DNA from: Bradyrhizobium sp. CCBAU 53351 | GTDB lineage: Bacteria > Pseudomonadota > Alphaproteobacteria > Rhizobiales > Xanthobacteraceae | Length of the DNA stretch: 64,000 nt | NCBI RefSeq assembly: GCF_015291745.1 | Contig: NZ_CP030059.1 | Location: 6,103,501 to 6,167,500 of the forward strand | Reading direction: 5' to 3' | Shown here: positions 28,560 through 55,416 of the stretch, one piece after another | How positions within the stretch are numbered: position 1 is the first letter of the stretch | Layout of the letters: every line of letters starts with the position of its first letter | Position numbers and translations under genes: made by a program | Notes under the pieces: generated by a model | The model's input: the letters and a program-made list of their open reading frames with translations, nothing else | Database searches by the model: none | What the model was told of the DNA's origin: nothing

Positions 28560-28585
28560 AACGAAAGCAGTTACCGGACCGTTCC
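28560..28585 (-). promoter_or_regulatory. EcfG (general stress sigma) promoter of prkA
   Basis: Read on the minus strand: GGAAC (complement of 28581-28585), 17 bp, CGTT (complement of 28560-28563). This is an exact match to the alphaproteobacterial general-stress consensus. The predicted start gives a leader of roughly 30 nt to the prkA ATG. Confidence 0.7.
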
Positions 28586-37415: not shown

Positions 37416-39218
37416 TCACTTCGACCGCTGCATCGCCGGCTTTTCGCTCTTCTGCCTTGCCGCGGACAGATTGTGTGCGGTGTTGATCAGCGCGATGTGG
37501 GTCAGCGCCTGCGGGAAATTGCCGGTCTGGCGCCGGGTCACGGAATCATATTCCTCGGCCAGGAGACCAACGTCATTCGCGATGCCGGCCACGCGATCGA
37601 GCAAGGCTTGCGCCTTGTCGAGATCGCCCGCCAGCACATGGGCATCGGCGAGCCACAATGTGCAGGCCAGGAACGCACCTTCGAGCGGCGGCTGGTCCGC
37701 GGGCAGCTCGCGCGGATCGTGCCGCAGCACGAAGCCGTCGCGCATCAGGCGGGCCTCGACGGCCGCGATGGTGCCGCGGATCCGCGGATCGTCCGCCGGC
37801 AGAAAACCGACGGCCGGCAGCAGCAGCACGGATGCATCGAGCAGCTTCGCGCCATAGGATTCGACGAAGGCGTTTTCCTCGGCGTCAAATCCCCTGTTGC
37901 AGACATCGCGATGAATGGCCTCGCGCAAGGTGCGCCAGTGCAGCAGCGGCGCCTTGAAGCCGAACGTCTCGGCGCTCTTGATGCCACGGTCGAAGGCGAC
38001 CCAGGTCATGACCTTGGAGAAGACGTAGTGCCTGGGCTCGCCCCGGCGCTCCCAGATGCCGTGATCGGGCCGGTCCCAGACCTCGGCGAGATGATTGAGC
38101 ACGGCGCATTCCAGCGCCCATGTCGTTTCATCGTCGAGCTTGAGCTTGGCCATGCGCGACTGGTGGAATGCGTCGATCAATTCGCCGTAGACGTCGAGCT
38201 GAAGCTGCGCATGCGCCGCATTGCCGACGCGCACCGGCTTTGCGCCCTCATAGCCGTCGAGCCAGCCGGCCTCCCATTCCAGGAGCCGCCGCTGGCCCCA
38301 GATGCCGTACATGATTTGCATGTTCGCCGGCGAACCTGCGGCGGCGCGCAGCAGCCAATTGTGCCAAGCCAGGGCTTCCTCGGTGTAGCCCGAGTTCATC
38401 AGCGCCAGCAGCGTGAAGGTGGCATCGCGCAGCCAGCAGAAGCGGTAGTCCCAGTTCCTGCTGCCGCCGAGCTTTTCCGGCAGTGACGTGGTCGGTGCTG
38501 CGACGATGCCGCCCGTCGGGCCGAAGGTCAGCGCCTTCAGCGTGATCAGCGAGCGCATGATGAGATCGCGATAGTCGCCGTCGCGGGTGCAATGGCCACA
38601 CCAGTCCTTCCAGAACTCCTCGGTGTCCCGGAGCGCGGTCTCGGGATCGATCGGCGCGGGCGGCTCGAGATGCGAGGGGCCGTAGGTCAGGACGAACGGC
38701 ACGGTCTCGCCTGCCCTCACCTCGAAATCGGAGACCGTGGTCAGATCCTCGCCGCGGGTCCCGACCGGCGTGCGCAACACCGTCATGTCCTGGCCGGCAA
38801 TGGCCATCAGCGAATGGTCGATCCGCCGCACCCAGGGAATGTCGATGCCGAAGCCGAAGCGGATCACGAGCTCCATCCGCATTTTCACTGAGCCCTCGAT
38901 GCCGCGCACCAGCCGGACGATGTCCGACGCCTTGCCGCGCGGCGGCATGAAGTCGATCAGCGCGATGGTGCCGCTCTTGGTCTCAAAACGCGTTTCGAGG
39001 ATGAGGGTATCGCCGAGATAACGTCGCGATGTCCCGATGACGTCCTCGTTCGGCGCGATCAGCCAGCGGCCGTTCTTATGGGTGCCGAGGATGGCGGCAA
39101 AGCACGCGTCGGAATCGAAGGCCGGCCAGCACAGCCAATCGATTGAGCCGTTGCGCCCGACCAGCGCGGCGGTCTCGCAATCACCGATCAGCGCATAGTC
39201 TTCGATCTTCTGTGACAA
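37416..39218 (-). CDS. Glycoside hydrolase family 15 protein
   Basis: A 600-residue (alpha/alpha)6-barrel protein related to glucoamylase and to GH15 trehalases. The N-terminal beta domain (IEDYALIGDCETAALVGRNGSIDWLCWPAFDSDACFA-type start) is followed by the catalytic barrel with GGSRNWDYRFCWLRDATFTLLAL, QLDVYGELIDAFH and GIWERRGEPRHYVFSKVM-type blocks. It could cleave alpha-1,4-glucan ends or trehalose; GH15 members with this N-terminus include the mycobacterial trehalase. Its place 31 nt after malQ fits glycogen/trehalose turnover. No signal peptide is seen, so it acts in the cytosol. Confidence 0.88.
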   Translation of the reverse strand: MSQKIEDYALIGDCETAALVGRNGSIDWLCWPAFDSDACFAAILGTHKNGRWLIAPNEDVIGTSRRYLGDTLILETRFETKSGTIALIDFMPPRGKASDIVRLVRGIEGSVKMRMELVIRFGFGIDIPWVRRIDHSLMAIAGQDMTVLRTPVGTRGEDLTTVSDFEVRAGETVPFVLTYGPSHLEPPAPIDPETALRDTEEFWKDWCGHCTRDGDYRDLIMRSLITLKALTFGPTGGIVAAPTTSLPEKLGGSRNWDYRFCWLRDATFTLLALMNSGYTEEALAWHNWLLRAAAGSPANMQIMYGIWGQRRLLEWEAGWLDGYEGAKPVRVGNAAHAQLQLDVYGELIDAFHQSRMAKLKLDDETTWALECAVLNHLAEVWDRPDHGIWERRGEPRHYVFSKVMTWVAFDRGIKSAETFGFKAPLLHWRTLREAIHRDVCNRGFDAEENAFVESYGAKLLDASVLLLPAVGFLPADDPRIRGTIAAVEARLMRDGFVLRHDPRELPADQPPLEGAFLACTLWLADAHVLAGDLDKAQALLDRVAGIANDVGLLAEEYDSVTRRQTGNFPQALTHIALINTAHNLSAARQKSEKPAMQRSK

Positions 39219-39249: not shown

Positions 39250-41211
39250 TCAACTTCCGCCGTTCAACGAACGTTCCCGGGTTGCCGCTCGCAAGGCCGT
39301 GAGGTCGACCTTGGAGGCGATCTTGTCGAGCGCGACGGGAAGACGCTGGCGCCAGTTCGGGTGCTCGTCGATCGTGCCGGGAATATTGGGCTGGTCGATG
39401 ACGCCGAGCAGATCCTCCATCGACACCGCGAGCAGCCGCGACGGCGTGCGCGACAGGAAGGCGAGCACCGAATAGAGGTCGTTGGCCTTGATGCCGTTCT
39501 GACGCAGGATCTCGTCGAGGGCGCCGAGCGCATCCCAGCGCGCCTGGTCGTTCTCGCCGGGATCGAGCCCGAGCGATCGCTTCATCTTGAGATCGCCAAA
39601 GGAGCGCCAACCGGCATAGGTCGACAGGTCATGCGTGTTCAGCGTGACCAGCGCATTGGGCCTGTAGTGGTCGACGGGGCGGAAATGACCGGCATCGTCG
39701 CGCTCGAACATCATGACGAGATAGGACCAGATGCCGAAATCCTGCATCATCTCGCGGAAACCCTCCGGCACGGTACCGAGATCCTCGCCGATCACGATGC
39801 ATTTGTGGGCCGCGCTCTCGCGCGCCACGGCGCCAAGCAGCGCCTCGAACGGCATCTGCACATAGGCGCCGTTATCGGGCTTGAAGCCGCGCGGCACGAG
39901 ATAAAGCCGCTTCAGCCCGAGCACGTGGTCGAGGCGGATGGCGCCGGCATGGCGCATCGAGGCTGCCAGCATGTCGGCGAACGGCACGAAAGATTGCGCT
40001 TCCAGGCCGCCGGCGTTGAAGCCGGCAAGGCCCCAATCCTGGCCGACGGTGTTGAGCACGTCGGGCGGCGCGCCGACGGCGAGATGGCGCGAGATCGCCA
40101 TCTGCTCGTTCCAGGCATCGAAGCCATTGGACTGCACCCCGACGGCGACATCGAGATAGAGCCCGACCCGCATGCCGAGCTGGCTGGCGAGCTGCTTGGC
40201 GGCATGCAGCTGGCTGTCCGCCGTCCATTGCACGAACTCGACGAATTCGACCTCGCGCTTGTCGGGTCCGTTGCGCAGCCCGGCGCATTTCGCCTCGTCC
40301 GGCTGCTGCCATTCCGCCGGCCATTCCCACCACGGCACATTGAAACGATGCCGCAGCACCTCGAAACAGGCAAAGCGCGACAGCAATGGCGCGCGCTCGG
40401 CGCGGAAGGCGTCAAATTCCTTGCGGCGCGCTTGGCTCGCGCTCGTCACGAAGCTGTTGAAGGCAGCGCGCAAGGCCAGCCATTTCAGCGCGGCCATGTC
40501 GGCGTAAGGCACGCGATCGCCTTCGCGCAGACGGACGGCGGTCGCGGCTGCGTCGGGCACGAGATCAGCCGCGAATTCGGGAATGGCCTCGACATCGATA
40601 TAGAGCGGATTGAGGAACAGCCGGCTGTTCGGCGAATAGGGGCTGCAATCCGAGGGGTGGTCGTCGAACAGAACGTGCAGCGGATTGAGCCCGACGCCGT
40701 CGGCCCCGAGCTGCTTGGCGAGCCTGACCAGATCGGCGAGGTCAGTGAAATCGCCGATGCCCCAGTTGCGGTTGGAGCGGACGCTGTAGAGCTGCACGGC
40801 GAGCAGCCAGCCGCGGTCGAAATCGCCGCCGAAGGCCCGCTCCGGCGCCACGATCATCGGCACCTCTTCCGTCACGCCTTGGGCATCGGTCAGCGTCAGG
40901 CGGTGATAACCGAGCGGCAGGTCGGCCGGCCAGGCGATCACGGGCTCGCGGGTCTCCCCCTGGGCGATCGATTTGCTGGTTGCGGTCAACGTCCATTGCA
41001 GCGGCGGCGCGCCGATCGCCGCCAATTCCGTGCGCGGATGTCCGAGTGCGCGAACCACGACCGGCCCGCTCACGAAGCGGTAAACCCGTTTCTCCGGCAG
41101 GGCGTCGAGGATGGACTTCAGGGCCACGGGGTCAGTGACCCGCAGCTTTCCGAGGGCGTCAACGAATTCGGATTGAACGCCCTTGATGCGGGCTTGAGCT
41201 AAAAGATCCAT
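39250..41211 (-). CDS. malQ: 4-alpha-glucanotransferase (amylomaltase)
   Basis: A 653-residue GH77 enzyme that disproportionates maltooligosaccharides. The N-terminal extension of about 150 residues matches the enterobacterial-size MalQ. Catalytic residues lie in AIRLDHVLGLKRLY (Asp nucleophile), VIGEDLGTVPEGF (Glu acid/base) and LNTHDLSTYAGW (Asp). GNWGIGDFTDL-like NWGIGDFTDLADL and DGVGLNPLH are typical. It is first in the malQ-GH15 minus operon, divergent from the glgE-like operon. An EcfG-like promoter candidate lies about 80-100 bp upstream. Confidence 0.94.
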   Translation of the reverse strand: MDLLAQARIKGVQSEFVDALGKLRVTDPVALKSILDALPEKRVYRFVSGPVVVRALGHPRTELAAIGAPPLQWTLTATSKSIAQGETREPVIAWPADLPLGYHRLTLTDAQGVTEEVPMIVAPERAFGGDFDRGWLLAVQLYSVRSNRNWGIGDFTDLADLVRLAKQLGADGVGLNPLHVLFDDHPSDCSPYSPNSRLFLNPLYIDVEAIPEFAADLVPDAAATAVRLREGDRVPYADMAALKWLALRAAFNSFVTSASQARRKEFDAFRAERAPLLSRFACFEVLRHRFNVPWWEWPAEWQQPDEAKCAGLRNGPDKREVEFVEFVQWTADSQLHAAKQLASQLGMRVGLYLDVAVGVQSNGFDAWNEQMAISRHLAVGAPPDVLNTVGQDWGLAGFNAGGLEAQSFVPFADMLAASMRHAGAIRLDHVLGLKRLYLVPRGFKPDNGAYVQMPFEALLGAVARESAAHKCIVIGEDLGTVPEGFREMMQDFGIWSYLVMMFERDDAGHFRPVDHYRPNALVTLNTHDLSTYAGWRSFGDLKMKRSLGLDPGENDQARWDALGALDEILRQNGIKANDLYSVLAFLSRTPSRLLAVSMEDLLGVIDQPNIPGTIDEHPNWRQRLPVALDKIASKVDLTALRAATRERSLNGGS

Positions 41212-41415: not shown

Positions 41416-43362
41416 GTGAACAAGACAATTCAAACTGTCGAAAGTGCCGCAGCCGGCAGCGCTTTCCTCATCGAAGACGTCTATCCCGCGATCGATGGCG
41501 GCCGCTTCGCCGTGAAGCGGATCGCGGGCGAGAGGGTCGAGGTATGGGCTGATGTCTATCGCGATGGCGAGGCCGTGGTCGGGGCCGCGCTGCTCTGGCG
41601 CCCCGAGCAGGACCGGGATTGGCGGCGCGAGCCGATGATCCATCACAGCAATGACCGCTGGTCCGGCGCTTTCACGCCGGCGGAGCCCGGCCAATATGCC
41701 TATGCGATCGAGGCCTGGACCGACGAGTTCGCCACCTGGTCCCACGCCGTCGCACGCAAGCAGCGAACCGGGGCCGATGTCAGCCTCGATGCGCTCGAGG
41801 GGGCCGGCCTCCTGACCAAGGCGCATGGCGCGCCGCAGGCCGCCGCGGCTGTCATCGTCAGACAATGCGAGGATTATCTGCAGACCGGCGATGTCACCTC
41901 GCTGCTGGCGAGCGAGCTCAGCGATGCCATGGCCGAGAGCCAGTCCCGACCCGATTTGACCCGCTCACCGTCCTTCCCGCTGACCATTGACCGCGACAGG
42001 GCGCGGTTCGGCGCCTGGTATCAGATGATGCCACGCAGCCAGAGCCGGATCCCCGGCCAGCACGGCACGCTGCGCGACTGCATCGCGCGCGTGCCTGATA
42101 TCGCGGCGATGGGTTTTGACGTGCTCTACTTCACGCCGATCCACCCGATCGGCCACAGCCGCCGCAAGGGCCGCAACAACGCGCCGGTGGCGAGCGACGG
42201 CGAACCCGGCTCGCCCTACGCGATCGGCGCCGCCGAGGGCGGCCACGATGCACTGCATCCGGAGCTCGGCACCATCGAGGATTTTCGCGCGCTGGTCGCG
42301 ACGTGCCTCGAATATGGTCTCGAGCTTGCACTGGACTTCGCCGTGCAGTGCTCGCCGGACCATCCCTGGCTGACGGAGCATCCGGAATGGTTCAAATGGC
42401 GGCCCGACCGCTCGGTGCGGACCGCGGACGGCCGCTATTCCGACATCGTGATTCCCGATTTCGCCTCGGTCGACCGCATCGGCCTGTGGAACGCCTTTCG
42501 CGACGCCATGCTGTTCTGGATCGACCATGGTGTCACCATCTTCGCCATCGACAACCACGACACCGCGCCGCTGGCATTCTGGGACTGGCTGATCCGCGAC
42601 ATCCGCCGCCGGCATCCCGAGGTGATCCTGTTCTCCAAGACGTTTGCGCGGCCGAAGCTGATGAAGGGCCTAGCCAAGCTCGGCTTTGCGCAGTCCTTCA
42701 CCTATTTCCCCTGGCGCACCTCGCGCTGGGAGCTGGAGCAATATCTCGGCGAGCTGACGCGCTATCCCGAGCGCGACTTCTATCGTCCGAATCTGTTCGT
42801 CAACACGCCCGATCTGCTGCCCTATCATCTCCAGGGCGGCGAAGCCTGGGCGTTCAAATCGCGCCTCGCACTGGCGGCGACGTTGTCGGGCAGCTACGGC
42901 GTTTACAGCGGGTTCGAACTGCTGGAGCACGAGGCGATCCCCGGCCGCGAGGAATATCAGGATTCCGAGAAGTACCAGATCAAGCAGCGCGACTGGGACC
43001 AGCCCGGCAACATCAAGGCCTATATTGCAGCACTCAACCGCATCCGCAACGACAACGCCGCGCTCCAGCAAACGGCGAATTTGCGTTTTCTGGACGTCGA
43101 AGACGGCGAGACCATCGCCTTCGTCAAGGAGGCGGCTGAGCCCGCCAACATTGTCGTCATCGTGATCGCACTTTCCGGCCACGTGCGCGAATGCTGGCTG
43201 CCGCTCGGCGACGTCACCGTTGACGCCGGCGGGCAGCGTCACCATGTGACGACACTCGAAAACCTCCTCACCGGCGAACAGTCCCGCATCGAATGGGGCG
43301 GGATCAGGTTGCGTATCGATCCCGACCGCGATCCGGCGCATTTGTTCCGCTGCCTGGCGTAA
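41416..43362 (+). CDS. GlgE-like GH13 protein with altered active site
   Basis: A 648-residue protein with the GlgE architecture: N/S domain ([19 protein letters not shown]), GH13 barrel from about 195 ([20 protein letters not shown]) and C-terminal beta domain. True GlgE adds maltose from maltose-1-phosphate to alpha-1,4-glucan. Here the nucleophile Asp379 ([10 protein letters not shown]) and Asp466 (VNTPDLL) remain. The general acid/base Glu of the family SEAF motif is Lys408 (SKTF), the RVDNPHTKP block is AIDNHDTAP, and the phosphate-binding segment ENPPKKYQD is replaced by the shorter ADGRYSD (337-343). Canonical activity is therefore doubtful. GTG 41416 was chosen because it gives the family N-terminus and leaves room for the divergent promoters; 64 in-frame codons precede it. 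Confidence 0.85.
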
Positions 43363-43373
43363 AGGGGCACGCC

Positions 43374-46300
43374 ATGAACGTTCTATCTTCCGTCGACACC
43401 AAGAAGGCTGAGGCTGCCGAGATCGTGGACGAGCTGTGGTACAAGGACGCCATCATCTATCAGCTCCACGTCAAGGCCTTCGCCGACAGCAACAATGACG
43501 GCATCGGCGACTTCGCCGGGCTGACCGAGAAGCTGCCCTATCTGCAGGAGCTCGGCGTCACCGCGCTGTGGCTGTTGCCGTTTTATCCCTCGCCCGGTCG
43601 CGACGACGGCTACGACATCGCCGATTACGGTTCGGTCAATCCCGATTTCGGGACGATGAAGGACTTCAAGCGCTTCATCCAGGAAGCGCAGAAGCGGGGC
43701 TTGCGCGTCATCACCGAGCTCGTCGTCAATCACACCTCGGACCAGCACAAATGGTTCAAGCGCGCGCGCCGCAGCCATCCCGGCTCGAGCGCCCGCAACT
43801 GGTATGTCTGGAGCGACACCGACCAGAAGTACCAGGGCACGCGCATCATCTTCACCGACACGGAAAAGTCGAACTGGACCTGGGATCACGAGGCCGGCGC
43901 GTTCTACTGGCACCGCTTCTTCTCGCACCAGCCGGACCTCAATTTCGACAATCCGCGCGTGGTCAGCGCGCTGATCCAGGTGATGAAGCGCTGGCTGGAT
44001 GCCGGCGTCGACGGCTTCCGGTTGGACGCCATCCCCTATCTCTGCGAGCGCGACGGCACCAACAACGAGAACCTTCCCGAGACGCATGCGATCATCAAGC
44101 GCCTGCGCCAGGAGCTCGATTCATACTCCAAGGGCAAGCTGCTGCTCGCCGAGGCCAACCAATGGCCAGAGGACGTGCAGGAATATTTCGGCCGTGGCGA
44201 CGAGTGCCACATGGCCTATCACTTCCCGCTGATGCCGCGCATCTACATGGCGATCGCGCAGGAGGACCGTTTTCCGATCACCGACATCCTGCGTCAGACG
44301 CCGGACATTCCGGCGAGCTGCCAATGGGCGCTGTTCCTGCGCAATCATGACGAGCTGACGCTGGAGATGGTCACCGACGTCGAGCGCGACTATCTCTGGA
44401 CCACCTACGCCAACGATCCCCGCGCCCGCATCAATGTCGGCATCCGCCGGCGCCTCGCGCCGCTCATGGACAACGACCGGCGCAAGATCGAACTGATGAA
44501 CTCGCTGCTGCTGTCCTTCCCCGGAACGCCGATCATCTATTACGGCGACGAGATCGGGATGGGCGACAACATCTATCTCGGCGACCGCAACGGCGTGCGC
44601 ACGCCGATGCAGTGGAGCCCGGACCGCAACGGCGGCTTCTCGCGCTGCGACCCCGCCCGCCTCTACGCGCCGCTGATCATGGATCCGGTCTACGGCTACG
44701 AATCGGTCAACGTGGAGGCGCAGTCGCGCAGCCTGTCGTCGCTGCTCAGCGCCACCAAGCGCCTGATTTCGGTGCGCAAGTCGACGCTCGCCTTCGGCCG
44801 CGGCACGATGACCTTCATCCGCCCGGCCAACCGCGCCGTGCTGGCCTATGTCCGGCAGTATCGCGACGAGGTAATCCTGTGCGTCGCCAATCTGTCGCGC
44901 GCCGCGCAGGCCACCGAGCTCGATTTGTCGCCGTGGAAGGACCGCATCCCGCAGGAGATGCTCGGCCGCACGCGATTCCCCGCGATCGGCGAACTGCCCT
45001 ACATGATCACGCTGGGGCCCTACGGCTTCTACTGGTTCCAGCTTCAGGAGCGCGACAAGTCCGAGCCGGTGACGCCGCGCGCGGTGCCGGAATTCGAGAC
45101 GCTGGTGGTGCCGGTGAATTCCAACTGGGTGTCACTGGCCCGCGAGCGCGGCGTCTTCGAGCGCGACGTGCTGCCGGGATTCCTGTCGCGGACCCGCTGG
45201 TATCCCGAGCACAATCCCAAGCAGATCAAGACCACGCTGACGTCGGCGGTGCCTTTCAGCGACATCGGTGACAACAGGCCGTGGATTGCGTTCTTCGAGA
45301 CGGCGCGGGACGACGTTACTACGCGATACGTGCTGCCCATGCAGATCGAATGGGTGCGCTTCGACCGCGAACGCTTCAACCCAAAGGCGCTCGCCGCCGT
45401 CCGCCAGGGCGCGCGCGAGGGCACTCTGCTTGACGTTGCCACCGATCCGATATTCATCGGCCTGTTCTTGCGAGGTCTGTCGCAACACCTGGTCGTGGAC
45501 GAGAACAATCTGCGGCTGGAATTCAAGGCGACCAGCAAGTTCTCCGACTATACCGTCAAGGAGCCCGAACGTATCCGCACCATCGAGCAATCGAACAGCA
45601 CCGCGCTGGTCGACAACCAATACGTCGCCAAGATCTACCGCCGGCTCGAAAGCGGCGTCAGTCCCGAGATCGAGATCGGCCATTATCTCACCGAGGTCGC
45701 GCGCTTCGCCAACACGCCGGCGCTGCTCGGCAGCGTCGAGCTGGTCGAGGGCGGACAGCGCAGCGCGCTCGGCGTGCTGCATGCCTATGTCGAGAACCAG
45801 GGCGACGGCTGGACCGTGACCACGGGTTATCTCGATCGCTATATCGACGAGCAGCGCGTGTTGTCGGCCGATGAAATGCCGCGCGAGACCCAGGAGCAGG
45901 CGCCCTATCTGCATTTCATCGCGCAGATCGGCCGCAGGCTCGCCGAGCTGCACCTCGCTCTCGCCGCGGCCAAGTCCGACGATCTCGCCCCGGTGCCGAT
46001 CGAGACTGCCCAGGTCAAGGCCTGGGTGTCCGACCTCAAAGCGCGGGCCCAGCGGGTTCTCGATCGGCTGGCCGATAGCCGCGACGGTCTGCGGGAGGCG
46101 GACCGCCCCCTGATCGACCGCCTCACCGCGATGCGGGCGAGCCTGTCCGACGCCCTGAATGCGCTATTGCCTTCGGGGATCGGCGGGTTGAACATCCGTC
46201 ATCATGGCGACTTCCGCCTCGGGCAAACTCTGATCGTGAAGGACGATATCTTCATCATCGACTTCGACGGCGATCCGCGCCAGCCGCTGGCCGACAAGCG

Positions 46301-46664
46301 GCGCAAGCTGCCTGCCGCGCGCGACGTCGCCGGCCTGATCCGCTCGATCGATGCCTCGGTCAACGCGGCGCTGGGCCGCGCGCTGACGGGGGTTTCCGAC
46401 GAGCAGGGCCGGCTCGCGGCCGCGCTCGACGAATGGCGCGAGCGAGCCGGTTCGACCTTCCTGTCCGCCTATCGCGAAGCCATGACCGATCGCCGGCTGT
46501 GGCCGGAGGACCGGCAGTCCGCGGAAGGCCTGATAAGATTTTTCCTGCTTGATCAGGCCTTCAATGAATTAGAGTACGAGCTGTCCCACCGGCCTGAGGG
46601 GCTCCATGCGCCGCTGACCGGACTGCTTCGCATTCTGTCCAATGAGAGCGAAGCCCATGCCTAA
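43374..46664 (+). CDS. treS: Trehalose synthase fused to maltokinase (TreS-Mak)
   Basis: A 1096-residue fusion. Residues 1-560 are GH13 trehalose synthase (interconverts maltose and trehalose): [19 protein letters not shown], nucleophile Asp218 in [10 protein letters not shown], acid in [12 protein letters not shown], and [11 protein letters not shown]. Residues about 590-1096 are a maltokinase (Pep2/Mak) of the aminoglycoside-kinase fold that makes maltose-1-phosphate: [14 protein letters not shown] at the front, Asp946 in HGDFRLGQ and Asp963 in [17 protein letters not shown]. Compared with the usual HGDxHLGQ and DFEGEP, the His and both Glu are changed. Start ATG 43374 with AAAGGGG upstream, 11 nt after the glgE-like stop. 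Confidence 0.93.
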
Positions 46665-48795
46665 ACTGCCTGCCGAGGCCTATGCGATCATCGAGGGCCG
46701 CCACTCCGACCCCTTCCACTATCTCGGGCTGCACCCTGAGGGCAGCAAAAGCGTGGTGCGCGCGTTTCTGCCCGAGGCCTCCAACGTCGAGGCGGTCGGC
46801 GAACATGGCGAGGTCGCCTCGCTCGACCGCGTGCACGATGCCGGACTGTTCATCGGTGCGCTGCCCAACGGCTCGAAGCACTATCAACTGCGCGCGAAAT
46901 TCGGCGGCAACGTCGTTGAGTTCGAGGATGCCTATCGCTTTCCGCCGATCCTGACCGATTTCGACCTCTATTTGCTCGGCGAGGGCACCCACCAGCGCCT
47001 TTACGACAAGCTCGGCGCCCATCCGATGCGTCATGAAGGCGTCGACGGCATCGGCTTCGTGGTGCTGGCGCCGAATGCACGGCGCGTGTCCGTGGTCGGC
47101 GATTTCAATTTCTGGGACGGACGGCGCCATCCCATGCGGGTGCGCGGCGCCGGCTATTGGGAATTGTTCATCCCGCACGCCAAGGCCGGCGATCACTACA
47201 AATTCGAGATCATCGGACCGCATGGCCATCTGTTGCCGCTGAAGTCCGATCCGATGGCGTTTGCGAGCGAAGTCCGTCCGAAGACGGCTTCGATCGTGTT
47301 CGACGAGGCTCATCTGCCGAGGCCGCGCCCGTCACCTGACGGCATCAACGCGCTGTCGGCGCCGATGTCGATCTACGAGGTTCATCTCGGCTCATGGCGT
47401 CGCAAGAACGGCGATGAATGGCTGACCTATCGCGAGCTGGCCGAGCAGCTGCCGGCCTACGCCCGCGACATGGGCTTCACCCATCTGGAATTCCTGCCCG
47501 TCAGCGAGCATCCGTTCGACGGCTCGTGGGGCTATCAGCCGACCGGCCTCTACGCGCCGACCAGCCGCTTCGGAAGCCCTGAGGATTTCGCCGCCCTCGT
47601 CGATGCCTGCCACCGCGAGGGCGTCGGCGTACTGCTCGACTGGGTGCCGGGTCATTTCCCCGACGATCCGCACGGGCTCGGCAGCTTCGACGGCACCGCG
47701 CTGTACGAGCACGCCAACCCGCTGCAGGGCCGCCACCTCGACTGGGGCACACTGATCTATAATTACGGCCGCACCGAAGTGACGAACTTCCTGGTGTCGA
47801 ACGCGCTGTTCTGGATGGAGCGTTACGCGATCGACGGCCTGCGTGTCGATGCCGTCGCGTCCATGCTCTATCTCGACTACAGCCGGCCACCCGGCGCATG
47901 GATCCCGAACCAGTATGGCGGCCGCGAAAACATCGAGGCGATCAACTTCCTTCGCCGCTTCAACACCGAGGTCTTCGCCCGCTTTCCGCAGGCGACCACG
48001 GCTGCCGAAGAATCCACCGCCTGGCCTCAGGTGTCGCGGCCGGTCGAATTCGGCGGGCTCGGCTTCGGCTACAAGTGGAACATGGGCTGGATGCACGACA
48101 CGCTGAACTACATCAGCAAGGATCCGATCCACCGCAAATACCATCACGACGAGATCCTGTTCGGCCTGCACTACGCGTTCTCGGAAAACTTCATCCTGCC
48201 GCTGTCTCATGACGAGGTCGTGCACGGCAAGCGCTCGATTCTCGGCCGCATGCCCGGCGACGAGTGGCAGCGTTTTGCGAATCTGCGCGCCTATTACAGC
48301 TTCATGTTCGGCCATCCCGGCAAGAAGCTGCTGTTCATGGGCGCGGAAATCGCGCAGAGCCGCGAATGGAATCACGACCAGTCGCTCGACTGGCACCTGC
48401 TCGAATACAAGTACCATTCCGGCACCCAGGCACTGATCCGGGACCTCAACCGGCTCTACCGCGCGGTGCCGGCGCTGCACCAGATGGACTGCGACCCCGC
48501 CGGCTTCGAATGGCTGATCACGGACGACGCCGGCCGCAACGTGTTCGCCTGGCTGCGCAAGGGATTCGACGAGCACGCGCGGTGCCTCGTCATCGTCAAC
48601 TTCTCGCCGAACGTCTATCAGAACTACCGCGTTCGCGTGCCCTTCGGCGGCAAATGGAAGGAAGTGCTCAACTCGGATTCCGCCCATTATGGCGGCAGCA
48701 ATGTCGGCAATATCGGCGAGGTCAATGCCGAGGGCGGCGAGCTTCGCCTCGCCATTCCGCCGCTCGCCGCGATCTTCCTCGTTCCGGAAAGCTGA
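46657..48795 (+). CDS. glgB: 1,4-alpha-glucan branching enzyme
   Basis: A 712-residue GH13 enzyme introducing alpha-1,6 branches into glycogen. N-terminal CBM48 domains ([28 protein letters not shown]) precede the barrel with [43 protein letters not shown], nucleophile in [19 protein letters not shown], Glu in AAEESTAWP and [11 protein letters not shown]. All catalytic residues are present. The ATG at 46657 overlaps the treS stop by 8 nt; an upstream ATG at 46642 is possible. glgX starts 3 nt after the stop. Confidence 0.95.
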
Positions 48796-48798
48796 CAC

Positions 48799-50873
<2,075 letters not shown>

Positions 50874-50877
<4 letters not shown>

Positions 50878-52628
50878 GGCCGTCCTTCGGGGCGAGGCCG
50901 ACGAAGGACGGCGTGTCGTTCCGCCTGTGGGCGCCCGCCGCGCGCCGTGTCGACCTTCTGCTCGACCGACGACATGCGATGCAGCGCCGGCAGGATGGCT
51001 GGTACGTGGCCGAGATTGCCGGTCTCACCGCCGGCAGCTCCTACAAATTCAGGATCGACGACGACATCGACGTGCCGGATCCGGCCTCGGCTTTCCAGCC
51101 CGACGACGTGTTCGGCCCGAGCGAGGTGATCGATCACGACGCCTTTCCGTGGCGCGCGCGCGATTGGCGCGGCCGGCCCTGGGAAGAGACGGTGCTGATC
51201 GAGACCCATGTCGGCACCTTCACGTCGAAAGGCACTTACCACGCCATGATCGACAAGCTGGATCATCTCGCGGCAACCGGCATCACCGCGCTGGAGCTGA
51301 TGCCGCTGGCCGATTTCGCGGGACGCCGCGGCTGGGGCTATGACGGCGTGCTGTGGTATGCGCCAGACAGCGCCTATGGCCGCCCCGAGGACCTGAAGAC
51401 GCTGATCGACGAGGCGCATCTGCGCGGGCTGATGGTGTTCCTCGACGTCGTCTACAACCATTTCGGCCCCGAGGGGAATTATCTCGGCCGCTACGCGCCG
51501 GCCTTCTTCACCGATGCGCATACGCCCTGGGGCAGCGCGATCGACTATCGCGTGCCGCAGGTGCGCGCGTTCGCGGTCGAGAATGCGCTGTCTTGGCTGA
51601 CCGATTACCGTTTCGACGGATTGCGGCTGGATGCCGCCAATCACATCATGGCGATCCCCGGCGAGATATCGATGCTGCATGATCTCAGCGCCGCTGTCGG
51701 CGAGCTCTCGAAGGCGACGGGTCGGCACATCCATCTCGTGCTCGAGAATGGCGACAACCGGGCTAGCTTGCTCGACGCGGCGCAGGAGCCGCCGAACGGC
51801 AAGTATCGCGCGCAGTGGAACGACGATTATCACCATGCCTGGCATGTGATGCTGACCGGGGAGCATGCCGGCTATTACGGCGACTACCAGACGCCGCGCA
51901 TGGACCTCGCACGCGCACTTGCCTCGGGCTTCGTCTATCAGGGCGAGGTTTCGGAGTTCTGGGGCAAGAAGCCGCGCGGCGAGCCGAGCAGTCAGCTGCC
52001 ACCTGCGACGTTCGTCAATTTCCTGCAAAACCACGACCAGATCGGCAACCGCCCGCTCGGCGACCGACTCGAAAGCCTGGCATCGCCGCAGCAAATCGAG
52101 GCCGCGCTCGCGGTGACCCTGCTCGCGCCGATGGTGCCGATGCTGTTTCAGGGTGAGGAATGGGGCTCGACGGTGCCCTTCCCGTTCTTCTGCGATTTCC
52201 AGGGCGGGCTCGCCGATGCCGTCCGCAAGGGGCGCAAGCAGGAATATGCTTGGGCCTACGAAAAATACGGCGACGAGGTGCCCGATCCGCTCGATCCCGC
52301 AACGCTGCAATCGGCCGCGCTCGACTGGACCGGCCGCACGCCGCTGCAGGACGCCCGGCTCGCGTTGGTCCGACAGCTGCTTGCGCTGCGTCGCAAGGAG
52401 ATCGTGCCGCGGCTGAGGGGCGCAAGTTTCGGCGAGGCCGAGGCGGCAGACAACGGCCTGCTCACCGCTCATTGGCGGATGGGTGACGCCACGGCGCTGC
52501 GCCTGACCGCCAATCTATCGGACAAGGACATCGCGCGTCCCGACGGCGCGACGGGCGCTCCCATCTGGGGCGACGCGAGCGGCGAGCGGCTCGCGCCATG
52601 GTCGGTGATCTGGCATCTCGGAGGTTAA
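50874..52628 (+). CDS. treZ: Malto-oligosyltrehalose trehalohydrolase
   Basis: A 584-residue GH13 enzyme that releases trehalose from maltooligosyltrehalose made by TreY. The N-terminus MRPSFGARPTKDGVSFRLWAPAARRVDLLL is characteristic. Catalytic blocks: DGLRLDAANHIMAIPG, HLVLENGDNR (the Glu) and FLQNHDQIGNRPLG. AWNDDYHHAWHVMLTGE-like QWNDDYHHAWHV is diagnostic of TreZ. ATG 50874 overlaps the glgX stop by 4 nt; treY begins 1 nt after the stop. Confidence 0.95.
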
Positions 52629-52629
52629 C

Positions 52630-55416
52630 ATGCCTCCTGCCATTCCGCTCGCGACCTACCGGCTGCAGCTCACCGCGGATTTCGACTTCGACAAGGCCGC
52701 CGCCGTCGTGCCTTACCTCAAGGCGCTGGGAATCACGCATCTCTACGCCTCGCCGGTGATGAAGGCGCGCAAGGGCTCGACCCATGGCTACGATACCGTC
52801 GATCACAGCCAGTTCAATCCGGAGCTCGGCGGCGAATCCGGCTTCACACGGCTGAGCGACGCACTCGAGGCCCACGACATCGGCCTCGTCATCGACTTCG
52901 TCCCGAACCATGTCGGCGTGCATTTCGCGGACAATCCCTGGTGGCTCGACGTGCTCGAATGGGGCCAGGCCTCGCCGCACGCGGTCTCCTTCGACATCGA
53001 CTGGGACCTGTTGCCTTACCGCGCGCGCGGCGGCGTGCTGCTGCCGATCCTCGGCAAGTCCTACGGCGACGCACTGGAGAGCGGCGAGATCGAGCTGCGC
53101 TACGATCCCGACCAGGGCAGCTTCTCCGCCTGGTATTTCGAACATCGCTTGCCGATCGCGCCGGAGCGCTATGGCGAGATCCTGCGCATGACCGTGAAGG
53201 ACGCGGAAGCCGCCGAAACGGAGGCCGGCAAACGCCTGCTCTCGCTCGCGGCGCGCTACACCGGACTGCGCCGCCCCAACCGCAAGGAAGCCCCCGCTTT
53301 CAAGACCGAGCTCAGGGAGATCGCAGGTGGCGCCGATATCATCGCACGCGGCCTTGCTGCTTATCGTGCCGCCAAGGATCGTCCCGCGCAGACCCTGGCG
53401 CTGCATCATCTGCTGGAACGTCAGAACTACAAGCTCGGGCACTGGCGGCTCGCCTCCAGCGATATCAACTACCGCCGCTTCTTCGACGTCAACGGACTTG
53501 CGGGCCTGCGTGTCGAGGACGCGACCACTTTCGCCGCCACGCACCGGCTGGTGAAGCAGCTCATCGCTGGCGGCAGGCTACAGGGCATCCGGCTCGATCA
53601 CATCGACGGCCTGCGCGATCCCGCGCAATATTGCCAGCGGCTGCGCCGCCTGGTGCGCGATGCGCAAGGAAACAGCAAGCCGTTCTACACGGTGATCGAA
53701 AAGATCCTGTGCGAGCACGAACGCCTGCCGCACTTCGCCGGCGTTCAGGGCACCACCGGTTATGAATGGATGAACGTCATCACCCAGGTCCTGGTCGACA
53801 CCAAGGGCCTGGCGGCGCTGGACGAGACCTGGCGGCAGATCAGCAACCGTCCGCCACAGCTTGCGCCTTACGTCAAGGAGGCCAAGCGGCGCGTGCTGGA
53901 GACGCTGCTCACCAGCGAATTCACGGTGCTGACGCGCCTGCTCGCGCGCATCGCCAACGGGCATTACTCGACCCGGGATTTCTCCGCGGACAGCCTGCGG
54001 CAGGCACTGGAACTCTATGTGCTGCATTTCCCGGTGTACCGTACCTATTTGACCAACAGCGGCGCGACGGCCGCCGACCGCAAGCTGATCGACGACACCA
54101 TCGCGCGCGCCCGCTCCGAATGGTTCGCCGCGGACGAAGGCATCTTCGATTTCCTGCGCGACGCCCTGACCATGGATCTGCTCAAGCCCGGCCGCCCGCC
54201 ACACAGCGCCCCGCGCGTGCGCCGCTTCGCGCTGAAGGTGCAGCAATTCACCGGCCCGATGATGGCGAAGTCGCTGGAGGACACCGCGTTCTATCAATTC
54301 CACCGGCTGCTCGCCCTGAACGAGGTCGGCGGCGATCCCGCCAGCAACGGCCTCAACATTCCAGCTTTCCACGAGGCCATGCAGGCCCGCGCCAGGGAAT
54401 GGCCGCTGGGAATGACGGCGACCGCGACGCATGACACCAAACGCGCCGAGGATGCCCGGGCGCGCATCGCGGGCTTAAGCGAAATTCCCGGTGAATGGAC
54501 CAGCGCGGTTTCGCGCTGGAAGGTGTTGAACGCGCCGCATCTCACGCTCCAGGGCAATTTCCGCGCGCCGTCGGCGACCTTCGAATACATGCTCTACCAG
54601 ACGCTGCTTGGGGCTTGGCCGCTGCAGGGGCCGATCGATTCGGGCTTCGTCGAGCGCATCCAGGCCTACGCCCTGAAGGCCGCGCGCGAAGGCAAGGAGG
54701 AGACGAGTTGGCTTAACCCGCATGAAGCCTATGAGAACGGCATCAAGAGCTTCATCGACAAGATCCTCGATCCCACGCTGTCAGGTGAATTCCTGGAGGC
54801 GCTGCAGACGCTGGCCCGGCGCGTGGCGCTGCTGGGCGCACTGAACGCGCTGAGCCAGCTCACCCTCAAGGCGACGCTGCCCGGCGTGCCCGACTTCTAT
54901 CAGGGCACCGAGTTCTGGGACCTTTCATTGGTCGACCCCGACAACCGCCGCCCGATCGATTTTGGCGCGCGGCATGCGGCGCTGGGGTCGCTGGACGATC
55001 CGGACTGGGGCGGCCTTAAGAAGAGCTGGCCGGACGGCCTGATCAAGCTGGCCTGGACACGGCGTCTCCTACGGCTGCGCAACGAGCTCGCCGACGTCTT
55101 CGCGCAAGGCGACTACCAGCCGCTGGCGGTGCACGGCACACATGCCGACCACGTCATTGCCTTCGCCCGCCGCCACGGCCGCAGCGCGGCGATCGTCGTG
55201 GTCGGGCGTCACTTCGCGCCGTTCACGCAAGCGGGCCGGGAATGGCCAGCGCCCGACGGAGTCGACGCAACCATCGATATCACGGGCTATGCGGCGGCGG
55301 GCTTTGCAGGCAACGAACTGCCGCTCGCGCAGGCCTTCCGCGATTTTCCTGCTTTCGTCGTCGAAGCCCGCACGGCAAGCGCCGTCAGGCCGGCGCGGCC
55401 GCGTGCACGCGCCTGA
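52630..55416 (+). CDS. treY: Malto-oligosyltrehalose synthase
   Basis: A 928-residue GH13 enzyme that rearranges the reducing end of maltodextrins to a trehalose unit. It starts PLATYRLQLTADFDFDKAAAVVPYL, then SPVMKARKGSTHGYDTVDHSQFNPELGG. Catalytic Asp lies in GIRLDHIDGLRDP, Glu in TVIEKILCEHERLP and Asp in TATATHDTKRAEDARARI. VPDFYQGTEFWDLSLVDPDNRR is conserved in the family. With TreZ it gives an ATP-free route from glycogen to trehalose. It is last in the six-gene operon and ends 1 nt from the convergent PHA-protein stop. Confidence 0.95.
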   Translation: MPPAIPLATYRLQLTADFDFDKAAAVVPYLKALGITHLYASPVMKARKGSTHGYDTVDHSQFNPELGGESGFTRLSDALEAHDIGLVIDFVPNHVGVHFADNPWWLDVLEWGQASPHAVSFDIDWDLLPYRARGGVLLPILGKSYGDALESGEIELRYDPDQGSFSAWYFEHRLPIAPERYGEILRMTVKDAEAAETEAGKRLLSLAARYTGLRRPNRKEAPAFKTELREIAGGADIIARGLAAYRAAKDRPAQTLALHHLLERQNYKLGHWRLASSDINYRRFFDVNGLAGLRVEDATTFAATHRLVKQLIAGGRLQGIRLDHIDGLRDPAQYCQRLRRLVRDAQGNSKPFYTVIEKILCEHERLPHFAGVQGTTGYEWMNVITQVLVDTKGLAALDETWRQISNRPPQLAPYVKEAKRRVLETLLTSEFTVLTRLLARIANGHYSTRDFSADSLRQALELYVLHFPVYRTYLTNSGATAADRKLIDDTIARARSEWFAADEGIFDFLRDALTMDLLKPGRPPHSAPRVRRFALKVQQFTGPMMAKSLEDTAFYQFHRLLALNEVGGDPASNGLNIPAFHEAMQARAREWPLGMTATATHDTKRAEDARARIAGLSEIPGEWTSAVSRWKVLNAPHLTLQGNFRAPSATFEYMLYQTLLGAWPLQGPIDSGFVERIQAYALKAAREGKEETSWLNPHEAYENGIKSFIDKILDPTLSGEFLEALQTLARRVALLGALNALSQLTLKATLPGVPDFYQGTEFWDLSLVDPDNRRPIDFGARHAALGSLDDPDWGGLKKSWPDGLIKLAWTRRLLRLRNELADVFAQGDYQPLAVHGTHADHVIAFARRHGRSAAIVVVGRHFAPFTQAGREWPAPDGVDATIDITGYAAAGFAGNELPLAQAFRDFPAFVVEARTASAVRPARPRARA

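Follow-up and report, generated by a model that had tools for sequence, protein, structure and literature searches.

A Bradyrhizobium clade with a lysine-type GlgE-like protein and an altered maltokinase partner

The window, a 64,000-nucleotide stretch of the Bradyrhizobium sp. CCBAU 53351 genome, encodes a protein with the architecture of the maltosyltransferase GlgE in which a lysine, Lys408, occupies the position of the general acid/base glutamate. The protein belongs to one Bradyrhizobium clade, in which the sugar pocket of the partner maltokinase (Mak) is altered as well, a change that was absent from the original prediction. Judged from its residues, the window protein is very unlikely to work as a normal maltose-1-phosphate maltosyltransferase. 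The best single account, which we consider somewhat more probable than all others together, is a GlgE pseudoenzyme kept as a non-catalytic, glucan-binding subunit.

The GlgE-like protein and its locus

The open reading frame starts with GTG, contains zero internal stops and forms a single contiguous frame, in agreement with the original prediction of a GlgE architecture without frameshift. Residues 18-645 were aligned by phmmer to S. coelicolor GlgE (E 1.6e-143), and Pfam placed the N/S, catalytic and C domains over the full length, with 183 bits for GlgE_dom_N_S and a GLGE_C score of 23.7, slightly below the cut-off of 27. Equivalent residues were assigned from the phmmer alignment, using S. 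coelicolor numbering for the reference. Structural statements combine alignment to the solved GlgE and Mak sequences with published contacts; the roles of GlgE residues were taken from passages of PMC5076824, PMC8238978 and PMC4663749, the last of which also supplied the maltose contacts.

The nucleophile D394 and the third Asp, D480, correspond to D379 and D466 and are both retained, as had been predicted. K408 is aligned at E423, again as predicted (codon AAG), and an alignment placing a conserved Glu at the acid/base position was looked for and not found. The predicted change of RVDNPHTKP to AIDNHDTAP is likewise seen, with A377 at R392 and D382 at the position of H397; the replacement of Arg392 in the -1 subsite is a further serious loss. 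The segment ENPPKKYQD, whose Asn, Lys and Tyr bind the phosphate of maltose-1-phosphate, had been described as reduced to ADGRYSD. A three-residue gap is indeed present, N352 is replaced by G339 and K355 is absent, but the Tyr is kept (Tyr357, here Y341), as is the ligand Asn395 (N380). Because these two ligands remain, the phosphate site is damaged but not entirely gone.

The four key positions read R, D, E, D in 138/138 canonical GlgE rows among the relatives found in this analysis, and the other positions compared above do not vary in these rows either. The same residues occur in 75 of 80 GlgEs from a multi-phylum set (the best 80 of at least 595 matches), the other five being of the Bradyrhizobium Lys408 type; this set overlaps our genus sample, for example at L163 and G064. 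In S. coelicolor GlgE, mutation of E423 led to loss of activity and H397R decreased the kcat from 9.4 to 0.22 per second, according to passages of PMC5076824.

Downstream of glgE on the same strand follow the TreS-Mak fusion, glgB, glgX, treZ and treY, while malQ and a GH15 gene are divergently oriented (Table 1). The true start of TreZ probably lies further downstream than that of its open reading frame, since the match begins only at residue 111. Of the first 40 genus stretches retrieved, 37 conserve this order, including a few in which a gene is in two pieces; the exceptions are L036, which ends at a contig edge, and L059 and L060, which represent a different locus. As a separate matter, a general-stress sigma promoter upstream of the operon was considered and rejected: the motif for this factor, GGAAC-N15-18-CGTT, matched the window once, at 28560 (1.5 matches expected by chance), and not near 41416.

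Table 1. Features of the glgE gene run in the window
Feature	Coordinates	Strand	Basis or remark
GH15 family protein, adjoins MalQ	37416..39218	-	
MalQ, divergent neighbour of glgE	39250..41211	-	
GlgE-like protein (GH13_3), 648 aa, K408 type	41416..43362	+	ORF, Pfam, phmmer
Shortened phosphate loop (residues 335-346; canonical ENPPKKYED region)	42418..42453	+	alignment
AIDNHDTA motif (residues 377-384; canonical RVDNPHTK), A377 for R392, nucleophile D379 kept	42544..42567	+	
Lys408 codon AAG at acid/base Glu423 position	42637..42639	+	alignment
Asp466 codon, Asp480 equivalent, kept	42811..42813	+	
TreS domain of TreS-Mak fusion, active-site motifs intact	43374..45035	+	domain end approximate
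Maltokinase (Mak) domain of fusion, sugar pocket altered	45084..46664	+	
Mak P-loop EQSN, intact	45585..45596	+	
Mak catalytic loop HGDFRLGQ (canonical HGDFHLGQ), Arg for sugar-pocket His307	46203..46226	+	
Mak IDFDGD (canonical IDFEGE), E324 to D, E326 to D	46257..46274	+	
GlgB branching enzyme, same gene run	46642..48795	+	
GlgX debranching enzyme, same gene run	48799..50877	+	
ORF containing TreZ, match from residue 111	50586..52628	+	
TreY	52630..55416	+	

Distribution of the Lys408 type

Lys408 was found in 118 of the 120 homologues listed, the remaining two (P0120 and P0121) being canonical, and the species names on the Lys408-type matches include B. japonicum, B. diazoefficiens and B. 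liaoningense. Among 98 sampled genomes of the genus, 78 contain GlgE: 52 have the Lys408 type (clade I), 14 a canonical GlgE in the operon (clade II), 9 a third type (class III), one a diverged form (G083) and two a canonical GlgE at another locus (G052 and G054). None was found in the other 20, although absence is not certain in every case because four gave only weak matches and several assemblies are incomplete (G035, G074, G090 and G097 below 90%). No second full-length GlgE was found in the Lys408-type genomes of this sample. In the window genome (8.34 Mb, 99.99% complete), a second canonical glgE, which the original prediction had proposed to look for, was not found; the sole other match scored 30 bits and is confined to a small section of a different protein.

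In a quick tree, the Lys408 sequences form a monophyletic clade (SH-aLRT 100) nested within the canonical Bradyrhizobium GlgEs, and its nearest outside rows (P0120, L047 and L048) are canonical. Clade I was monophyletic in all seven operon gene or domain trees tried, with 14 members each; therefore the Lys408 GlgE was inherited with the operon. Lys408 was also sought beyond the genus in 28 stretches from 23 other genera of the family, together with two from Bradyrhizobium, picked from a family search that gave a match in 74 of 149 genomes. All 30 encode a canonical GlgE, and Mak is canonical at six key residues in 28 of them, that is, wherever it was found.

Conservation within the clade was read from 170 rows (119 proteins and 51 loci), in which some proteins may count twice. 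K408 is present in 170/170 and A377 in 167/170, compared with E and R in all 138 canonical rows; in the genus sample only, the counts are 52/52 and 51/52. His381 (169/170) and Asp382 (168/170) are nearly invariant. The maltose contacts are largely kept as well: K251 in 169/169, and D343 and D466 (170 each), K519 and Y520 (169 each) and Q311 (167) of 170, with weaker conservation at N255 (159/170) and S266 (153/170). The nucleophile D379 is retained in 166/170 rows and was lost in four, on at least three branches (Ala in two, Gly and Val in one each); the Lys408-type GlgEs concerned are L119 (Val), L129 (Ala), P0044 (Ala) and P0114 (Gly). A check of Bradyrhizobium orthologues, as originally proposed, thus found Lys408 common to them and the short segment in nearly all. 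The Lys408-type L033 and L034 have a longer loop holding Lys and Tyr, which suggests that the loop was shortened after Lys408 arose. GlgE lies in one open frame in 51 of the 52 clade I genomes and is split in G078. At this locus (L062), glgE and treS-mak each occupy two frames, and at L097 (G016) treS-mak alone does so, through either assembly error or real damage.

Two other variants occur in the genus. Class III comprises L050-L058 (G042, G077, G044, G004, G049, G069, G010, G003 and G070) and L168 from B. uaiense. Its GlgE keeps the catalytic R, D and E, has the phosphate loop EHPPQRWDD in most members and carries Trp for Tyr357, and the Mak P-loop is altered; this variant may act as a glucanotransferase that has become independent of maltose-1-phosphate. 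The GlgE of L061 (G083) is fast-evolving and keeps the catalytic Asp and Glu, with the loop AENPSETCDD and the Mak motifs HGDFHLGE and IDLEGNP.

The altered maltokinase partner

Mak residues were mapped via M. vanbaalenii Mak, with their roles taken from passages of PMC4306142. In the Lys408-type rows, the sugar-pocket His307 is replaced by Arg in 52/52 and E324 by D in 52/52 (DFDG in 52/52), and E326 is replaced by D, N or H. The ATP machinery is kept, with K149, D305, Q310 and D322 in 52/52 and the P-loop Ser in 47/52. As a member of the Mak family, the domain therefore has the P-loop and these four residues and lacks His307 and the DFEGE segment. Since its ATP machinery is intact, the clade I kinase may still act on something. 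Wherever a row covers the TreS active-site motifs, as 50 of the 52 clade I rows do, these motifs are intact.

Within the genus sample, all 16 loci with a canonical GlgE carry H307, E324 and E326. Class III Mak (9/9) keeps H307 and carries S136P and N137H in the P-loop together with E324D and E326G. Twenty operon stretches are without GlgE, from 18 genomes in which none was found plus G052 and G054. Mak motifs are altered in 18/18 of the GlgE-less genomes for which Mak was fetched (of 20), and the changes in the GlgE-less operons are varied, affecting the P-loop, H307, E326 and in some cases D305 or D322. These stretches (L076-L095) encode a TreS-Mak fusion with Mak motifs such as HGDLDLSQ, HGN and IGF, among others, and intact TreS motifs. 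G054 and G052 each have a second locus (L059 and L060, respectively) with a canonical GlgE and a stand-alone canonical Mak. These two genomes serve as internal controls, in that the fused Mak of the GlgE-less main operon is altered while the Mak beside the canonical GlgE is canonical.

Canonical states of GlgE and Mak agree in 119/119 rows; 26 of these came from beyond Bradyrhizobium, were scored as canonical at entry and also read so. This agreement is a pattern that does not amount to a replicated test, because only two of the five changes on the tree fall on well-supported branches; a replicated statistical test of the link fails, as the two independent pairs on such branches are too few. 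Within clade I, the link between Lys408 and the Mak change has one origin. Among the 80 best-matching loci that make up the multi-phylum set, Mak was found at 71, of which 63 are canonical for both proteins, five are of the Lys408 type with a changed Mak, one is class III and two combine a canonical GlgE with a replaced Mak E326. The last are L224 (an Acetobacteraceae MAG, IDFENG) and L238 (Komagataeibacter rhaeticus, IDFEGQ), and owing to this mismatch the link is looser outside the genus.

Selection and evolutionary rates

By simple pairwise counting, not a codon-model fit, the median dN/dS of clade I GlgE is 0.21 (45 pairs from 10 genomes), which bears out the original view of a protein under selection. 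The corresponding medians are 0.27 for Mak, 0.05 for TreS and 0.10 for GlgB in clade I, compared with 0.18 (GlgE), 0.24 (Mak), 0.11 (TreS) and 0.14 (GlgB) in clade II. GlgE and Mak are thus constrained, yet relative to their neighbours less so than in clade II. Mean pairwise distances in clade I, divided by those in clade II, are 1.17 for GlgE, 0.93 for Mak and 0.46 to 0.70 for the other five, so that GlgE and Mak evolve about twofold faster relative to the other operon genes in clade I. Such a relative speed-up is expected if catalysis constrains them less. The sisters L119 and L129, in which Val and Ala replace the nucleophile, still show a dN/dS of 0.177 over a dS of 0.28. A missing catalytic residue and purifying selection are hence found in the same protein, the combination looked for in a non-catalytic GH13 subunit.

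Across 51 clade I genomes, Lys408 has undergone zero amino-acid changes and two silent ones, and positions 381, 382 and 408 together show zero non-synonymous changes. The 13 canonical-invariant positions of GlgE that are fixed to another residue in clade I average 0.54 non-synonymous changes per site, whereas the mean over the gene is 2.96. This fixed, remodelled pocket counts against a pseudoenzyme, since a retired site need not show it. Special conservation of the pocket for ligand binding was also considered and rejected: 16 pocket sites average 0.75 non-synonymous changes and 251 other canonical-invariant sites 1.03 (p 0.90). Conservation of the pocket thus does not exceed that of other canonical-invariant positions, and these rates give glucan binding no specific support.

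The GlgC-GlgA route and physiology

A glgC match was found in 70 of the 98 genomes, covering clade I (52/52, with one match, in G055, partial and below the cut-off), class III (9/9), clade II (2/14), the diverged genome (1/1), the second-locus genomes (1/2) and those without GlgE (5/20). No match was thus found in 12 of the 14 genomes of this sample with a canonical operon GlgE. glgA is present in 19/19 genomes checked, and the glgC-glgA pair of the window genome lies outside the window, at G000:C1:5821314-5823967. With glgC found in clade I and glgA in all genomes checked, clade I can form glycogen independently of GlgE. The converse does not always hold, as G051, G091 and G054 have both glgC and a canonical GlgE, and glgC is not independent evidence because it tracks the same clades.

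For the presumed neighbours of treS in B. diazoefficiens, with the tags blr6765, blr6766 and blr6768, we found no papers that mention them by tag. For treS itself (blr6767), passages of PMC8092242 describe control by the general stress sigma factor and cite earlier work in which a treS mutant contained more trehalose and less maltose; this phenotype fits TreS sending trehalose to free maltose. In the same source, treZY and treS treZY mutants behaved like the wild type in symbiosis.

Interpretation

In the scenario that we infer, from the loss of activity through the order and reason of the changes to glucan binding and a partner role, the TreS-Mak-GlgE branch (trehalose to maltose to maltose-1-phosphate to alpha-glucan) would be closed at both of its last steps in one Bradyrhizobium clade. 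The Mak step would be closed by the replacement of the sugar-pocket His by Arg, and the GlgE step by the loss of the acid/base Glu, the -1 subsite Arg and part of the phosphate site. With both steps changed, the harmful build-up of maltose-1-phosphate that follows GlgE loss elsewhere, as described in PMC4663749 and PMC5042117, would be avoided. Glycogen would be made via GlgC-GlgA, which is present in clade I genomes. The fold and most maltose contacts are kept, in this scenario for a non-catalytic subunit with maltooligosaccharide or glycogen as its ligand. Plant ISA2 is a non-catalytic GH13 subunit serving ISA1; by analogy, the GlgE-like protein may position GlgB, GlgX, TreY/Z or TreS on the glucan.

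The original reading, either changed chemistry or a non-catalytic role, is supported, and sequence alone does not separate the two. Changed chemistry could take the form of a re-tooled pair, in which the kinase phosphorylates another sugar and the GlgE-like protein uses the product, or another donor, in a pocket built around Lys408, His381 and Asp382. The near-invariance of these residues and the lack of non-synonymous change at them speak for this idea, as do the Mak ATP residues, which are intact in clade I while the P-loop is altered in class III (9/9) and in most GlgE-less operons. We nevertheless hold it to be unlikely, considering that the nucleophile is gone in 4/170 rows with selection continuing and that the constraint on GlgE and Mak is comparatively loose in clade I; moreover, we know of no GH13 enzyme with Lys as its acid/base. 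Slightly less probable still is the version in which clade I re-tooled the whole couple, so that an Arg-pocket kinase would make a different phosphosugar and the GlgE-derived protein would bind, sense or transfer it.

Slow decay, with GlgE and Mak functionless and on their way out in GlgC-GlgA genomes, held only by folding needs or operon polarity, seems to us as unlikely as the re-tooled pair. It would account for the roughly twofold relative acceleration of both proteins, for the 20/98 genomes (several incomplete) in which a full GlgE was not found and for the altered Mak in 18/18. A dN/dS near 0.2 and persistence across many species argue against it, as does the open frame in 51/52 clade I genomes, the one split glgE being accompanied by a split treS-mak. 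That the protein is an ordinary GlgE, merely slower on maltose-1-phosphate and using Lys as its acid, is quite improbable: the nucleophile, D466, most maltose contacts and the operon context are kept, but mutation of E423 leads to loss of activity and H397R, at the position of Asp382, cuts kcat in S. coelicolor (passages of PMC5076824), R392, N352 and K355 are gone too, and Mak has changed as well. Sequencing error, a wrong frame or misalignment can be practically dismissed; we found no point in their favour, and the same lysine recurs in the homologues listed (118/120) and in 52 genus genomes, and the open reading frame in the window is contiguous.

Comparison with known systems and significance

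The window protein resembles the GlgE (GH13_3) of S. coelicolor and mycobacteria in its full architecture, nucleophile, third Asp, most maltose contacts and gene run with treS-mak and glgB. It differs in having Lys for the acid/base Glu, Ala for Arg392 and Asp for His397 and in lacking N352 and K355, and with them the full set of phosphate ligands. The canonical GlgE of clade II (for example L047, L048 and P0120) is its orthologue, with loci in the same operon place; in contrast, it keeps the catalytic residues, has a canonical Mak partner in the 14 loci and comes without a glgC match in 12/14 genomes. The kinase is homologous to Mak/Pep2 and to TreS-Mak fusions across the domain, including the P-loop, catalytic Asp and Mg-binding residues, whereas clade I differs at His307, E324 and E326. 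Plant ISA2 may be alike in its working, as a GH13 fold without catalysis within a set of glucan enzymes (PMC12510319); ISA2 belongs to another GH13 subfamily, and we propose a likeness to it, not membership.

GlgE of M. tuberculosis is essential and a drug target, whose inhibition causes toxic build-up of maltose-1-phosphate (passages of PMC4663749). Among the open-licence papers listed on GlgE, maltosyltransferase, maltokinase or maltose 1-phosphate in Bradyrhizobium, or on GlgE and maltokinase as pseudoenzymes, we found none on the Lys408-type GlgE. Databases label many Lys408-type proteins maltosyltransferase, and for this reason metabolic models may credit such strains with an absent route. 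Should the couple be re-tooled instead, rhizobia would have a phosphosugar route or sensor that is so far undescribed. This genus of soil and root nodules offers a natural experiment: GlgE seems to have lost catalysis, and the partner that makes maltose-1-phosphate has changed too. The pattern points to a joint retirement of the pathway's two final steps, and canonical and non-canonical orthologues within one genus can be used for direct comparison.
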